Shown here: positions 24 to 5,436 of the stretch, piece after piece
Position numbering within the stretch: position 1 is the stretch's first letter
How the letters are laid out: each line of letters begins with the position of its first letter
NCBI GenBank assembly: GCA_001803565.1
Contig: MHDQ01000215.1
Coordinates: forward strand, 860 to 6,295
DNA: 5,436 bases
Source: Nitrospinae bacterium RIFCSPLOWO2_12_FULL_45_22
GTDB lineage: Bacteria; 2-12-FULL-45-22
Direction: 5' to 3'
The notes under the pieces: generated by a model
What the model saw: only the letters and a program-made list of their open reading frames with translations
Databases searched by the model: none
Told to the model about the DNA's origin: nothing
Program-made: the position numbers and the translations under genes

Positions 24-171
24 TTCCCCTCTTAAAAGGCTTGTCCCGTACTCCGATACGGGAAGGGACTAAGGGGGGTGTCCTTTACCCTCCCCTCTAA
101 AAAGAGGGGTCGGGGGGTGTGTTCCTAGTATTCCCCTCTAAAAAGAGGGGATTAAGGGGTGTGTTTCTTCC
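24..171. repeat. Cluster of three C-rich palindromic repeat units
   Basis: Three tandem, degenerate units share the plan TCCCCTCT-A-run-AGAGGGG, a short link, then a GGGGTGTG tail. Units 2 and 3 contain the identical 18-base palindrome CCCCTCTAAAAAGAGGGG (92-109 and 133-150). Their tails are at about 111-125 and 154-171. Unit 1 (24-83) has a diverged palindrome interrupted by a separate small hairpin, TCCCGTA / TACGGGA, at 44-63 with a six-base loop, which looks like a repeat nested in a repeat. The third unit supplies the stop codon and the last residues (KKHTP) of the DUF559-type gene. An inverted copy lies at 653-687. The unit function is unknown. The palindromes could act as weak bidirectional terminators, but none has a T-tract. 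Confidence 0.8.
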
Positions 172-535
172 GTTCTTCACAATCTTCAATAAAGCATCGA
201 ATTACTTGTAAAACCCCATCCGTATTTTTCATTGCATCTTCGTCGCAGAATCTCAGTACCGTTATCCCCAATTCCTTTAATCTCTCTTGTTTTAAGACGT
301 CTTTCTTTACAATTTCTTCAAATGTATGAGTATAACCATCCAACTCAATAGCGAGTTTTAATTTGTTACAGAAAAAATCTAATATAAAATTACCAATTGG
401 TTTTTGCCGATGAAAATCATACCCCATCATTTTCTTACTCTTCAAGTATTGCCAGAGTTTAATTTCTGATTTCGTACTCTTATTTCTCAATTTCCGTGCA
501 AGTTCTTTGAGTTTTGGATGGTAATTTATCTTCAC
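152..535 (-). CDS. DUF559-family endonuclease-like protein
   Basis: This is a protein of about 127 residues of the DUF559 family, which has a Vsr/PD-(D/E)XK-like nuclease fold. With a GTG start at 535 it opens VKINYHPKLKELARKLR, as family members usually do. The family core follows: HRQKPIGNFILDFFC near residues 42-56, then LAIELDGYTH near 61-70, which gives candidate metal-binding acidic residues D53, E64 and D66. The C-terminal half has LGITVLRFCDEDA. An ATG at 580 is also in frame, but it would add 15 residues translated from a MITE and a dispersed repeat, so I prefer GTG 535. An AAGGGG lies ten bases upstream (546-551) as a possible ribosome site. Members are typically stand-alone, probably DNA-cleaving enzymes; the cellular role is not established. 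Inverted copies of one repeat sit at both ends of the gene and encode its termini. The gene looks intact. Confidence 0.85.
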   Translation of the reverse strand: MKINYHPKLKELARKLRNKSTKSEIKLWQYLKSKKMMGYDFHRQKPIGNFILDFFCNKLKLAIELDGYTHTFEEIVKKDVLKQERLKELGITVLRFCDEDAMKNTDGVLQVIRCFIEDCEERKKHTP

Positions 536-554
536 GGAAAACACACCCCTTGGA

Positions 555-648
555 GGCTGTCTAAAAAGTCCATAAACCATACAAAAAGTAGGGGCTGAAA
601 ATCTTCAGCCCTTACATATGGTACGTTCAAAATACTTTTTGGACAGCC
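555..648. mobile_element. MITE-like palindromic element, 94 bp
   Basis: Fifteen-base terminal inverted repeats, GGCTGTCTAAAAAGT (555-569) and ACTTTTTGGACAGCC (634-648), match at 14 of 15 positions. The centre holds a second palindrome, GGGCTGAAAATCTTCAGCCC (about 592-611). There is no coding capacity. This is the architecture of a non-autonomous element mobilised by a transposase elsewhere. It is flanked by the direct repeat AAAACACACCCCTT (538-551 and 653-666), offset by three or four bases from the termini. That repeat also belongs to the local C-rich family, so it is not a clean target-site duplication. The element lies immediately upstream of the DUF559 gene and could affect its expression. 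Confidence 0.65.
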
Positions 649-1996: not shown

Positions 1997-2125
1997 TAAC
2001 AAATTATTATACAGACCTGTATATCCTGCTAAAAGCGAGATATACGAGAAAAGGCACGTTGTGTACCGGAATTAAATCATGCAATATGGTGACTGTTTCC
2101 ACACTGCTTTTGCCGGTTCAATCCC
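1997..2125 (-). repeat. Inter-gene (cassette-boundary) repeat, copy 1
   Basis: This 129-base copy aligns without gaps to copy 2 (2707-2835), with roughly a dozen mismatches by eye, and its first 76 bases align to copy 3. It contains the small hairpins ATACAG/CTGTAT and TATATC/GATATA, plus GGCACGTTGTGTACC, in which one pair of the GGCAC/GTGCC stem is lost. Read on the minus strand it ends ...TATAATAATTTGTTAAC just upstream of the PIN-like start, so conservation stops at a GTTA junction as in cassette arrays. Confidence 0.85.
2006..2011 (-). promoter_or_regulatory. Candidate -10 box (TATAAT) in repeat copy 1
   Basis: The minus strand reads TATAAT 21 bases before the ATG at 1984. The same hexamer is in the same place in all three repeat copies. 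No convincing -35 box is seen at 16-18 bases spacing. If active, the leader would be only about a dozen bases long. Confidence 0.4.
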
Positions 2126-2162
2126 CGCACAGGAATTCAAACTGGCGGGTGAATCCAACTCC

Positions 2163-2189
2163 TGGGTTCAAGTTGCAAACTTGAACCCA
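2163..2189. repeat. Perfect 12-bp stem with 3-base loop
   Basis: TGGGTTCAAGTT (2163-2174), loop GCA, AACTTGAACCCA (2178-2189) is a perfect inverted repeat, with a further ACTCC/GGAGT pair outside it. It is the strongest hairpin in the gap. Weaker versions sit at 2839-2861, 3319-3343 and 713-761, always on the upstream-gene side of the boundary repeat. No T-tract follows on either strand, so it is not an obvious intrinsic terminator. Between it and the ASCH stop at 2284 I see only a 12-mer, TCAGTCGAACGA (2226-2237), shared with 5164-5175. Confidence 0.7.
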
Positions 2190-2283
2190 CTTGGGGAGTC
2201 TTGCTCTAAATATTTAGTCCCTAATTCAGTCGAACGAAATGGCTGTAAGTGCCCATCTTTATTTAATACACGATAAAGAGGCA

Positions 2284-2685
2284 TTATTTACTCGCCTTTC
2301 TTATGACTTCCTTTTCGATTTTGGGCGGAAGCTGCCAAAACCCAAGAGCACCGTTACAATAAATTGGCTCAATAGAGCGGGGATTTTTTAAAACAAAGCC
2401 ATATGCACCGCCGAACCACTTCGATTTGGAATTTGTTACACAATCTACTATATCTACAAATCCGATAACTGCACCACGGGTTATGACTTTCAAATCAGGA
2501 ATTTTCTTTCTATGATAATGTAGGAATAACTTTGCAGCTTCCTCATATTCTTTTATAGTCATTCCTTTTGCCGCATGAATAGCAACATTTCCTCGAAATA
2601 GGGTTGGCCAGTTTCTATTCTCTATATCTTTTCCAGCGAAAATAATTGCCCAAGCCCAAGGTTGCCTTACTGTTATAGCCTTCAT
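2284..2685 (-). CDS. ASCH-domain protein
   Basis: This is a 133-residue single-domain ASCH protein with a PUA-like beta-barrel fold that binds RNA or modified nucleosides in characterised relatives. Signature blocks appear in order: MKAITVRQPWAWAII (1-15), GKDIENRNWPTLFRG (18-32), VAIHAAKG (34-41), GAVIGFVDIVDC (71-82), WFGGAYGFVLKNP (90-102) and GALGFWQLP (112-120). The length is normal for the family. The ATG at 2685 is chosen because GAGGG lies about seven bases upstream and the conserved domain starts at once. The frame extends to a TTG at 2712, which runs into the boundary repeat. The gene is alone between two repeat copies. The substrate is unknown; related small ASCH proteins are frequent in phages and mobile regions. 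Confidence 0.88.
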   Translation of the reverse strand: MKAITVRQPWAWAIIFAGKDIENRNWPTLFRGNVAIHAAKGMTIKEYEEAAKLFLHYHRKKIPDLKVITRGAVIGFVDIVDCVTNSKSKWFGGAYGFVLKNPRSIEPIYCNGALGFWQLPPKIEKEVIRKASK

Positions 2686-2706
2686 ATTTATGCCCTCATT
2701 TGCCAC

Positions 2707-2835
2707 TAACAAGTTATTATACAGTCCTGTATATTCTGCTAAAAACGAGATATGCGAGAAAAGGCACGTTGTGTGCCGGAATTAAATTATACAAAATGGT
2801 GGCTGTTTCCACGCTGCTTTTGCCGATTCAATCCC
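2707..2835 (-). repeat. Inter-gene (cassette-boundary) repeat, copy 2
   Basis: This copy has the same length as copy 1 and is nearly identical to it, with an intact GGCAC-GTTGT-GTGCC hairpin (2763-2777) and the ATACAG/CTGTAT stem. On the minus strand it ends TATAATAACTTGTTAG, followed directly by the leader of the ASCH gene. It contains a second TATAAT (2791-2786) that copy 1 lacks. Confidence 0.85.
2716..2721 (-). promoter_or_regulatory. Candidate -10 box (TATAAT) in repeat copy 2
   Basis: TATAAT on the minus strand lies 30 bases upstream of the ASCH ATG, at the position conserved in the other copies. The -35 region is poor, so activity is a guess supported mainly by conservation. Confidence 0.4.
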
Positions 2836-2838
2836 ACA

Positions 2839-2861
2839 GCGGGTTTGCAACCTGAACCCGC
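2839..2861. repeat. Hairpin directly after the zinc-ribbon gene stop
   Basis: GCGGGTT (2839-2845) and AACCCGC (2855-2861) form a 7-bp stem with a nine-base loop, starting the base after the TAA at 2862-2864. The position suits a transcript end or a recombination-site arm. The absence of a T-tract argues against a standard intrinsic terminator. It corresponds to the 2163-2189 hairpin. Confidence 0.55.
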
Positions 2862-3230
2862 TTAGGAGAGGTACTCGCACTTCGGACATTCATGCGTTGC
2901 GTTCTGGATACTCACGAAGTCTCGTGGAACCGGTCTCATGTAGAACGGCTTCGCCTTGGTCGAACAGTTCGGGCAGGTGGGAATATCACTCGGCCTCGCC
3001 GATGAAGCAGATGAGAGTTCGGCCACCTGTGCTTCCAGTACCTGATTGCGCTCTCTAAGGGAGAGACGCTCCTCACTCAGCTTGATATTCGTTTCGTGAA
3101 GTTCCGCGTGTTCCGCTTGGATGTTAACGATTAGTGATTGAATGGTATTCAACTCTGCCGCCACCTTGCGATCCTGAATCCGGCTCACAAGCTGCGTGAG
3201 CAGGTCAACTACGTCTTTGATTGCACCCAT
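2862..3230 (-). CDS. Small coiled-coil protein with C-terminal zinc ribbon
   Basis: This 122-residue protein has no function I can name. The N-terminal part (1-33) is helical: MGAIKDVVDLLTQLVSRIQD. A charged heptad-like segment follows (about 34-73: ETNIKLSEERLSLRERNQVLEAQVAEL), very likely a coiled coil that mediates oligomerisation. The C-terminus has two cysteine pairs, CPNC (86-89) and CPKC (115-118), spaced as in a zinc ribbon, so nucleic-acid or protein binding is plausible. There is no signal peptide or membrane segment. The ATG at 3230 has a strong ribosome site. The gene is clearly richer in G+C than the ASCH and PIN-like genes either side, which fits separate origins brought together as cassettes. 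It could be an adaptor or a regulator; the sequence does not decide. Confidence 0.8.
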   Translation of the reverse strand: MGAIKDVVDLLTQLVSRIQDRKVAAELNTIQSLIVNIQAEHAELHETNIKLSEERLSLRERNQVLEAQVAELSSASSARPSDIPTCPNCSTKAKPFYMRPVPRDFVSIQNATHECPKCEYLS

Positions 3231-3233
3231 ATT

Positions 3234-3243
3234 CTCCTCCTCC
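3234..3243 (-). promoter_or_regulatory. Strong Shine-Dalgarno for the zinc-ribbon gene
   Basis: The minus strand reads GGAGGAGGAG three bases before the ATG at 3230. The optimal AGGAGG register sits about 6-8 bases away. It abuts the GTTA end of repeat copy 3, so the ribosome site belongs to the cassette and not to the repeat. Confidence 0.8.
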
Positions 3244-3343
3244 TAACAAGTTATTATACAGACCTGTATATCCTGCTAAAGCGAGATATACGAGAAAAGG
3301 CACGTTGTGTGCCGGAATCAAGTTGCATACGCGAATCCGCTTA
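3244..3343 (-). repeat. Inter-gene (cassette-boundary) repeat, copy 3 (short form)
   Basis: Bases 3244-3318 match copies 1 and 2 with a few mismatches and one deleted A. The copy then jumps to a tail, CAAGTTGCATACGCGAATCCGCTT, that resembles the outer hairpin block of copy 1 (about 2169-2192). About 50 to 100 bases present in the longer copies are missing. It fills almost all of the gap between the methyltransferase stop (3353) and the zinc-ribbon gene. The hairpins GGCAC-GTTGT-GTGCC (3299-3313) and ATACAG/CTGTAT are intact. Confidence 0.8.
3253..3258 (-). promoter_or_regulatory. Candidate -10 box (TATAAT) in repeat copy 3
   Basis: TATAAT on the minus strand lies 22 bases before the ATG at 3230. 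The leader would be about 15 bases and include the whole GGAGGAGGAG site, a compact and believable arrangement. A weak TTTAGC lies 16 bases upstream as a possible -35. Confidence 0.45.
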
Positions 3344-3352
3344 AAAGATATT

Positions 3353-5436
3353 TTATGGTGAACCTTCCGCAACGATTTTGATTTCATCCTCTGTCAATCC
3401 GTACAGTTCGTACACCAACTGATCAATCTGGCGGTCGGTGGCGTCAATCTGACGCTGGATGACGGTCTTGTCATGATCTGTCTTTGCCGATGCTGATCGC
3501 TTATGCAGTTCAAGCATCTGTCTAACAAAAGCAACCACACTGTCATGGTAAGACTTGTCCGATGGGTTGGAGGAATCAATTGTGCGAATGGGAATTTGTG
3601 AAAAATACATTGGTTTGTATTCAAAATAACCACCCTGTTTAGTAGAGGAAATCGAATGCATAAAGAAATCAGCCACTCTTGAATTCAATGTTCCAAGCAG
3701 GTATAAATCGCCTGTGACTATTATAGACGTTTTATCATTTGAGTAAAAACCAGTATCATCCAATGTATATGACGCATTTTGAACAATACACGGAACAATT
3801 ATCTTTGGTTTTTCAAACTTAGCGTAGTAGTCAACTGCATCTTGAATTTCATACCATTTATAAGTTCCTGGTTTTCTTCCTTTCCAATTACTGCCTTTCC
3901 AGCCCTTCGGTTTTGGCATAAGTCGTTCTTTATACTGACTTAAATATTTTTCTATGGCAGGATATTTTTGGATTTCGATCCCGCGTCTGGTAAAAATCAA
4001 GAATTGATTGCCCGTTGGCGGTTGATAGCGTTTAATATCCCGTCCGAGCAGGAATGGCTTTATAATCTCTTTGCTTTTAGTGTCTTCAGAAAAAAGCTTA
4101 TTTCTTGTTTCTTCATCTATCACAAATGCCTCATTGAGGCCTGTCTTAATACCATAGTAGATTTTACCCTTTACGTATTCTTTTAAAGGAACTCCGGTCT
4201 TTTTCAGCTTATTAAGCAGCGCAGAGCTTCGTTCATCTGTGAGCGACCAACCCGTATCATCAAGGGTGGATAGTTTTACAGAATGGCGGTTTTCTTTTAC
4301 ATAGCCTTCCAGACTTTCAAATTCAAGTGTTTTTACCTGGGTTGAGATAAAGGCGGATGGAGGTTTATCTTTCCCAATAACGAGGATGCAGGGATACGTT
4401 GTAGCTTGCTGGAATACAGGCAAATCTCCAAAATCTACAATTTGCGCAATACATTGTCGCTTTAACCACTTTCTGAGTGGTTCACCATAATTAGCCCGCA
4501 TCCACTTGTTTGCAACTATGTAACCGAAAATCCCTTTATCCCTGAGCAACGAAACACCTTTCTCAATAAAGTACGCATAGAGGTCGGACATTCCATGATA
4601 TACCGTGTATTTATGTTGGAAATATTCTTTCAGGTCGCCTAAGCCTTCTTGCCTTACATACGGCGGATTCCCGATTACCGCATCAAACCCGCCATTTTTC
4701 ATGATTTCCGGAAATTCCTTTTCCCAATCGAATGGATTGACCTTGCGACGTTCCTCGTCTGACAAAACACCATTACCCGCTAAATGGGTTACAACCCCCT
4801 CACCCCCTTTTCTAAGGGGGATATCTGGATTCCCCCTTAACAAAGGGGGATTTAGGGGGTTGTTATAAAAATCCGTGCCGATGAGTGAATTACCGCACTT
4901 GATGTTATTGCCGAGGTCTGGCAGGGCGCGCTCGTGGAACATTTTGAGTTGCTTTACAATGGTCTGTTCAGATTCCCCTTCCAGCACTTTGAGGAGAAGC
5001 GAAAGCTTCGTTACTTCCACGGCCTGTGGGTCAATGTCCACACCGTAGATATTATTGAGGAGGATACGTCTGCGTTCAGCGGTAGTCAATTGCCAATTTC
5101 GGATTTGGGAATTCGGATCCCCGATCTGAGTCGAGGACAAGTTTCGGACTTCGTCGTGAGCGCTCAGTCGAACGATTTCGGATTTTCCGGATTGGTACAG
5201 CGCAGGTGTGCGGCCGGTTGCCCATTTTTCAGGGTCATTGGCTACGTACCAGTCACGATGCCAGTCGAGCAGGTATTGATATGCGCCCAGGAGGAATGAG
5301 CCAGAACCACAGGCGGGGTCGAGGATTTTTAGTTTCGATACATATTTTGGATTTAGGGGATTAACAACCCCCATTTCCCCCTTTGTTAAGGGGGACTTCA
5401 CAACCCCCTTACCCCCTTTGCTAAGGGGGATTTTCC
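3353..5436 (-). CDS. Type IIG (Eco57I-like) N6-adenine methyltransferase/specificity protein, 5' partial
   Basis: This is the C-terminal part of a large restriction-modification protein. At least 682 residues follow the in-frame GTG at 5401, and the frame stays open to the window edge, so the true start and any N-terminal nuclease lie outside. Counting from 5401: SAM-binding motif I DPACGSGSF (28-36), GVDIDPQAVEVTKLSL (120-135), and catalytic motif IV NPPY (245-248), which marks an amino-group (adenine) methylase. Then come LLGRDIKRYQ (451-460) and a TaqI-like C-terminal specificity region (roughly 420-610, with KWYEIQ and QNASYTLDDTGFYSNDKTSII), and a helical tail to TAA 3353-3355. It would transfer methyl groups from SAM to adenine in a specific site, and cut if the nuclease is present. 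Three repeat-derived segments are translated in frame without disrupting the motifs. It could instead be a methylase-only relative. Confidence 0.88.
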   Translation of the reverse strand, partial: KIPLSKGGKGVVKSPLTKGEMGVVNPLNPKYVSKLKILDPACGSGSFLLGAYQYLLDWHRDWYVANDPEKWATGRTPALYQSGKSEIVRLSAHDEVRNLSSTQIGDPNSQIRNWQLTTAERRRILLNNIYGVDIDPQAVEVTKLSLLLKVLEGESEQTIVKQLKMFHERALPDLGNNIKCGNSLIGTDFYNNPLNPPLLRGNPDIPLRKGGEGVVTHLAGNGVLSDEERRKVNPFDWEKEFPEIMKNGGFDAVIGNPPYVRQEGLGDLKEYFQHKYTVYHGMSDLYAYFIEKGVSLLRDKGIFGYIVANKWMRANYGEPLRKWLKRQCIAQIVDFGDLPVFQQATTYPCILVIGKDKPPSAFISTQVKTLEFESLEGYVKENRHSVKLSTLDDTGWSLTDERSSALLNKLKKTGVPLKEYVKGKIYYGIKTGLNEAFVIDEETRNKLFSEDTKSKEIIKPFLLGRDIKRYQPPTGNQFLIFTRRGIEIQKYPAIEKYLSQYKERLMPKPKGWKGSNWKGRKPGTYKWYEIQDAVDYYAKFEKPKIIVPCIVQNASYTLDDTGFYSNDKTSIIVTGDLYLLGTLNSRVADFFMHSISSTKQGGYFEYKPMYFSQIPIRTIDSSNPSDKSYHDSVVAFVRQMLELHKRSASAKTDHDKTVIQRQIDATDRQIDQLVYELYGLTEDEIKIVAEGSP
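4791..4864. repeat. In-frame C-rich palindromic insertion in the methyltransferase
   Basis: Perfect ten-base outer arms ACAACCCCCT (4791-4800) and AGGGGGTTGT (4855-4864) enclose two hairpins, CCCCCTTTTCTAAGGGGG (4803-4820) and CCCCCTTAACAAAGGGGG (4832-4849). It encodes about residues 180-204 (NPLNPPLLRG...IPLRKGGEGVV), between GTDFYN and LSDEERRKVNPFDWE. Those two blocks are close together in relatives as I remember them. The reading frame is preserved. Confidence 0.8.
5099..5188. repeat. Second in-frame repeat-like insertion in the methyltransferase
   Basis: This stretch encodes about 30 residues (72-101: GKSEIVRLSAHDEVRNLSS...) between PALYQS and NWQLTTAERRRILL. In relatives, as I remember them, these are nearly adjacent (ALYQGPGGEWRLTTAER-like). 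The DNA contains the perfect palindrome TGAGCGCTCA (5157-5166), TTTCGGA repeated three times, the 13-mer CTTCGTCGTGAGC shared with 722-734, and TCAGTCGAACGA shared with 2226-2237. It is therefore built from a dispersed intergenic repeat of a different family from the C-rich one. The limits are approximate. Confidence 0.6.
5356..5436. repeat. C-rich palindromic repeats in the 5' part of the methyltransferase
   Basis: Two hairpins, CCCCCTTTGTTAAGGGGG (5377-5394) and CCCCCTTTGCTAAGGGGG (5412-5429), are of the family seen at 4791-4864. On the coding strand they read ...KIPLSKGGKGV, then (V/M)KSPLTKGEMGVV, just before KLKILDPACGSG. The GTG at 5401 lies inside this repeat, so it is unlikely to be the true start. 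The block may extend beyond the window. Confidence 0.8.

Follow-up and report, generated by a model that had tools for sequence, protein, structure and literature searches.

Dispersed attI-like repeats linked to restriction-modification genes as probable cassette insertion sites lacking an adjoining integrase

The window analysed here, a stretch of 5,436 nucleotides from contig C215 of bin G000, raises the question of what the repeats that part its genes are. The preliminary description had reported three copies of one repeat, in the same orientation and at the boundaries of unrelated genes, and had considered the stretch a possible cassette array in which the repeats, which do not fold as standard attC sites, are either a diverged attC class or the boundary element of another gene-capture system. 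The three copies are real and share one orientation. An ungapped alignment of 148 nt gives 86% identity between copies 1997-2144 and 2707-2854, and the third copy (3244-3324) has about 80 nt in common with them at 91-97% identity, lacks the middle ~55 nt that is present in both, and ends in ~19 nt (3325-3343) that match only the 5' edge motif AAGCGGRTTC. Chance is excluded as the origin of these repeats because about 25 more copies with the same end point are found in related genomes. All genes in question lie on the minus strand, and it is in gene direction that each repeat, as had been described, starts at or just past a stop codon and ends in GTTA, with the next start codon a few to ~30 nt further on. 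The window repeats each finish with TATAATAAYTTGTTA and the next gene lies directly behind.

In gene direction, the order is a type IIG restriction-modification (R-M) gene, repeat 3, a zinc-ribbon gene, repeat 2, an ASCH-like gene, repeat 1, a PIN-like gene, and an attC. The first gene (3353-5436, minus) had been noted as a methyltransferase and is identified as a type IIG restriction enzyme-methyltransferase by Pfam (Eco57I, E 2.4e-50) and PADLOC (REase_MTase_IIG, E 7e-109); the contig end leaves its C-terminal two thirds. Repeat 3 (3244-3343, minus) is a short form located directly behind this gene, and in the related locus L020 the short form is likewise directly behind the R-M gene. Cargo gene 1 (2862-3230, minus) encodes 122 aa with a coiled coil and a zinc ribbon and features a weak similarity to PADLOC LmuB (E 1.3e-7), and its stop codon falls inside the first bases of repeat 2 (CTCTCCTAAGCGGG; 2707-2868, minus). 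Cargo gene 2 (2284-2712, minus) encodes 142 aa, is ASCH-like by eye, and has its ATG probably at 2685. Repeat 1 (1997-2199, minus) is the full form, consisting of a 5' hairpin (GGGTTCAAGTTTGCAACTTGAACCC), a middle part, and a 75-nt core at 2071-1997. Cargo gene 3 (858-2002, minus) is PIN-like by eye; an apparent frameshift near 1700, either an assembly error or real, divides it between ORFs 1664-2002 and 858-1712. The predicted crossover G/TT, where the slash marks the exchange point, lies between 2000 and 1999 in repeat 1, between 2710 and 2709 in repeat 2, and between 3247 and 3246 in repeat 3, each on the minus strand. Pfam gave no match for any of the three window cargo genes, and searches for known RNA families, tRNAs, and viral or plasmid homologues found none. 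The palindrome GGGTTCAAGTTTGCAACTTGAACCC (window 2164-2188), which forms the 5' part of the repeat, is REP-like and is dispersed on both strands at many loci in G099, G406, and G468.

The first relatives were found by scanning species genomes with a 20-base piece of the repeat, which led to the Planctomycetota MAGs with loci L019 and L020. A search of their Planctomycetota family then gave ~25 further copies in 12 of its 33 genomes, followed by unrelated genes, and the source genome (a 3.67 Mb MAG) holds three copies only, all in the window. Hydrazine synthase is present in five of the 12 repeat-bearing genomes, so the family contains anammox bacteria. Bin G000 is without hydrazine synthase, its phylum has just two genomes in the set searched, and the window contig is close to the anammox-family MAGs; C215 is therefore probably misbinned, and the intI genes binned with it may come from a different organism. 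The contigs C215, C304, and C243 of this bin are of probably different origin. Across loci the repeat is 75-260 nt long, and its dispersed copies in the family include copies behind rubrerythrin, RNase R, and IlvC. A match in G042 was rejected as chance, since it sits within a protein gene of an AT-rich genome. One repeat copy in L019 contains an insertion of ~155 nt with inverted ends (CCTATGCACTTTRCTCAGG; about 4893-5048), which is probably a MITE. Locus L020 is syntenic with the window, featuring SelB (91% DNA identity to the SelB of the window locus), variable genes parted by the same repeats, and the same R-M gene, whereas the genes between the repeats are quite different from those of the window.

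In all intact copies, likeness ends at ...AACTTGTTA or ...TATAATAACTTG/TTA and is followed by unrelated sequence, with unrelated genes in the relatives beginning 0-90 nt past this point. The three bases past GTTA agree with the R' consensus that independent attCs from intI-adjacent arrays show. The first of these bases (n = 19) is G in 12 copies, T in five, A in two, and C in none, and when GTTA sites of the genomes were drawn at random 20,000 times, no draw reached the R' score of the junction bases. G099 and G497 have the same sequence at the rubrerythrin locus up to ...AATAACTTG and resume their likeness at the TPR gene that follows, with different cargo in between, namely TrmO in G099 and another gene in G497. 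The cargo behind the repeat of the RNase R locus differs as well, with a 112-aa gene and an Abi_alpha gene in G099 and a gene that is DUF262-like by eye in G498. The Abi_alpha pair occurs at two places, behind RNase R in G099 and behind an R-M gene in G490. The relatives' cargo, which includes BrnT toxin, HigB toxin, Abi_alpha, DUF4238, DUF5677, TrmO, and the DUF262-like gene, is of the typical small cassette and defence type. The proposal of a cassette-type array thus holds, in that orthologous places carry differing genes, the same gene occurs at different places, and several of the genes end in an attC.

These attCs were located with a calibrated covariance model (R1), built from an alignment of 15 attCs from true intI arrays of these genomes with their R''/R' and L''/L' pairs. 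In the window, with filters off, the model identifies one canonical attC (774-863, minus; 35.6 bits, E 1.6e-7), which the preliminary description had missed. It folds end to end (z -2.4), has the PIN-like gene's stop codon within its R'' box, and ends the last cassette. The last cargo gene alone keeps an attC; the zinc-ribbon and ASCH-like genes are without one and end in the repeat. In 220 kb around the repeats, all distinct sites at E<0.06 are attCs on the same strand as the repeat and just behind the following cargo genes (window, L106, L102, L019, L107, L101), and in a control of 212 kb the model gave one attC, which adjoins an intI. A simple palindrome scan was less sensitive than the model, yet it was the sole method that flagged the attC of L044. 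At 1900-1950 of L019, the end of a BrnTA cassette is a 5' attC half, joined to the 3' fragment of an R-M gene through the shared CGGCAAA.

The far side of the cargo is equally sharp. In L042, L106, L044, and L019, a common right flank starts exactly at the GTTATGC of the last attC and continues as CCCCGCGGGTTCACGTTACAAACC, with 92-100% identity to the L044 flank over 65-75 nt. The genes before it encode TrmO (L042), a 228-aa protein (L106), DUF4238 (L044), and a 289-aa protein (L019), and the attCs left of it are unrelated among the four loci. In the window, the region right of the last attC (700-773, minus), which begins GTTAGTGG, aligns as a diverged relative of this flank (GCGGGTTCACGTT...). 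The sequences themselves show the repeat family, the attCs, exact junctions on the left and on the right, and an exchange of cargo at orthologous places. Variable cargo between precise G/TT junctions on both sides is what integron cassette insertion, an established mechanism (PMC11023631, PMC12901181), produces.

Joining the left and right halves reconstructs an empty site, AATAACTTG/TTATGC, or in its longer form TATAATAACTTGTTATGC followed by CCCCCGCGGGTTCACGTTACAAACC; no empty site was found. The reconstructed site is identical over 15 of 15 nt (AATAACTTGTTATGC) to the attI (L016, 6480-6497, minus) next to the second intI of C304, a contig binned with the window, and is similar to the G294:C79 attI (AATAAGTTGTTATGA). 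In a position matrix built from the last 18 nt of the repeat, with a maximum of 30.2 bits, the attI sites of C304 and G294:C79 score 21.0 and 23.1 bits. At least 20 bits were reached at 8 of 405,372 positions of the test loci, which are the two attIs and six others that, not itemised, are consistent with repeat copies. A comparison of the whole repeat with the attI regions beside intI found no likeness past the core of 15-18 nt. Locus L016 features two intI genes ~1 kb apart on one contig (4451-5815 and 6749-7088); a canonical attC array accompanies the first, and the second has an attI that is like the repeat.

The repeats are very probably dispersed attI-type insertion sites without intI in cis, which would have spread with R-M genes and would be served by IntI in trans. 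The attI-type site would form the 3' tail of a mobile R-M gene, of type IIG here and a type I HsdS in some relatives, and this gene would carry it to many chromosomal places. A cassette, consisting of a promoterless gene and an attC, would enter at TATAATAACTTG/TTATGC, and after entry the left half of the site would lie before the gene and the right half behind the attC that closes the last cassette. Presumably, IntI would be supplied in trans by a true integron at another place in the cell. The window would be a locus of this kind, comprising three cargo genes and three sites; the zinc-ribbon and ASCH-like genes, each bounded by two attI-like sites, would correspond to the attI-ORF-delta-attI cassettes known in class 1 integrons or else to stacked R-M/attI units from which the R-M gene was lost. 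Against this explanation stand the lack of intI by any copy, the two of three window cargo genes without attC, and the dissimilarity of the repeat, outside the 15-18 nt core, to intI-adjacent attI regions. The absence of an empty site, the repeat-bearing genomes without an intI match, the probable misbinning of the window contig, and the instability expected of the array under an active integrase count against it as well. So does a promoter scan of the window, which found none in the repeats above chance, although the long form has TTGACA-N17-TATAAA as a candidate Pc promoter.

The spread with R-M genes is suggested by what lies upstream. In relatives, it is usually a type IIG gene that precedes the repeat, and the repeat lies behind such a gene or its 3' stub in the window, L019, L020, L106, L107, and L116 (W3, G098, G099, G490, and G496). 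In G316, G493, and G498, it is located behind the C-terminus of a type I HsdS. The remaining upstream places are loci where close relatives carry the type IIG gene; the RNase R locus features the start of this gene in G496, G169, G480, and G497. In L104, the element is joined directly to the initial codons of the type IIG gene. From this repeated co-occurrence with R-M genes, we infer that the site travels as an R-M gene tail.

The action of IntI in trans on these sites is plausible, and the cargo genes would presumably be expressed. No intI was found in the window or beside any copy; the intI genes detected lie at a distance or on separate contigs. The bin (C243, C304), G316, G294, and G493 have complete intI genes, none of which adjoins a repeat. 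At E<1e-30, five of the ten repeat-bearing genomes searched, several of them incomplete MAGs, gave no intI match, and in several repeat-bearing genomes intI is broken or without a strong match. Direct attI-ORF-attI units are excised almost completely by active IntI1 (PMC12901181), and the window array would therefore be unstable if a matching integrase were active; its persistence suggests low or no present integrase activity on the sites. In a first alternative, the loci are what is left of ordinary integrons in which R-M genes took the place of intI, with copies that spread only via homologous recombination among R-M paralogues and are now unused. This is unlikely. In its favour, the 3' stubs of R-M genes are repeated in L019, one of them is fused to an attC half through a short match, and broken intI genes are common in these genomes. 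Cargo that differs between close relatives at one locus argues against it, since this implies use after the site was placed.

A second alternative, which is rather improbable, is that the copies are hot spots of the attG type, that is, a dispersed repeat unrelated to integron platforms whose GTT core is tolerated by IntI and where cassettes landed. Cassette insertion outside integrons is established, as cited in PMC12444791 and PMC12901181, and the likeness to intI-adjacent attI spans 15-18 nt only. However, the intact copies are all occupied, at the same base each time, and intI-adjacent attI sites score 21-23 of 30 bits against the core. An attG is by definition an insertion site that is neither attC nor attI, and the attI-like core speaks against this. 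PMC12444791 reports that in E. coli attG insertions are spread widely, over many loci. Going by papers that cite Loot et al. 2024, attG resembles the present case in cassette insertion away from the integron platform and differs in being scattered over many loci, whereas here there is one conserved, multi-copy, attI-like site.

That the repeats are an unusual attC class is very improbable and already largely refuted. They do end in GTTA ahead of genes, the YTAAGCGGGTT at their 5' edge is reminiscent of the R''/L'' portion of the local attCs (TTAACAAGCGGGTC), and the stop codon of the zinc-ribbon gene falls within a repeat edge. However, model R1 with filters off gave 6.6 bits at most in the window outside 774-863, so that none of the three repeats has an attC score, and true attCs occur between the repeats and the right flank. 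Folding of both strands leaves the repeat ends unpaired, with separate small hairpins and free ends, and R''/L'' and L'/R' pairing with an extrahelical base is absent from the repeats. The observation that they do not fold as standard attC sites is confirmed in this way, and attC identity is rejected by the covariance model and the folds; in place of a diverged attC class or a boundary element of another system, the repeats appear attI-like, the ordinary partner site of an integron. A MITE-like or mobile-promoter element ahead of genes with no gene-capture role is scarcely credible: the repeats are dispersed, with a TATAAT near their 3' end and TTGACA-N17-TATAAA in the long form, but such an element would leave downstream genes unmoved whereas orthologous cargo differs from the crossover base on, and the attCs behind the cargo, the R' bases, and the common right flank would go unexplained.

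The usual view of an integron is that of a single platform per array in which attI has a fixed place next to intI. The dispersed attI-type sites proposed here share with chromosomal integrons an attI-like core, G/TT junctions, gene and attC cassettes in one orientation, and a cargo of toxin-antitoxin, defence, and unknown genes. They differ in having no intI in cis, an R-M gene in its place, and many sites per genome with one or few cassettes each. Like CALINs, they comprise cassettes without an adjoining integrase, and unlike CALINs they feature an attI-like site at the head. The single attC of the window falls short of the at least two attCs without intI that define a CALIN, and a CALIN headed by attI has been reported once, in the Shewanella prophage M16-3 (PMC9892861). 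The delta-attI cassettes of class 1 and 2 integrons show the same attI-ORF-attI order and a short AT-rich attI core before GTTRRRY, which in delta-attI2 is AATAAAATGTTRRRY (PMC12901181), and the zinc-ribbon and ASCH-like genes share their defining feature, a cassette attC replaced by part of an attI. Delta-attI cassettes lie within intI-bearing mobile integrons and their attI fragments are short (14 nt or more) (PMC12901181), whereas here the repeats are 75-260 nt long and occur at many loci. Among open papers, none was found that deals with integrons of anammox bacteria or with an R-M-linked, dispersed attI family, and a multi-copy, restriction-linked attI family appears to be undescribed there. 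If the explanation is true, a conserved, multi-copy attI without integrase would spread cassette capture over the chromosome and link it to restriction genes, and would account for cassettes missed by attC-based searches, as single-attC loci lie below CALIN thresholds. Tentatively, the whole may form a distributed integron, in which R-M copies bring an attI docking port as their 3' tail and an IntI elsewhere in the cell fills it with defence or toxin-antitoxin cassettes, giving small defence islands at many loci.

The linkage of the window to SelB rests on scaffolding, because a run of N (L014 851-859), flanked by the short repeat TCTCAGACTG, joins the end of SelB to the window, which starts at L014 860; L020 has the same order without a gap. 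Additionally, window 152-580 contains a DUF559 endonuclease-like gene that is 90-94% identical to copies in L110 and L116, is present twice in one of these two relatives, and is itself mobile, lying between GGGG-rich repeats.
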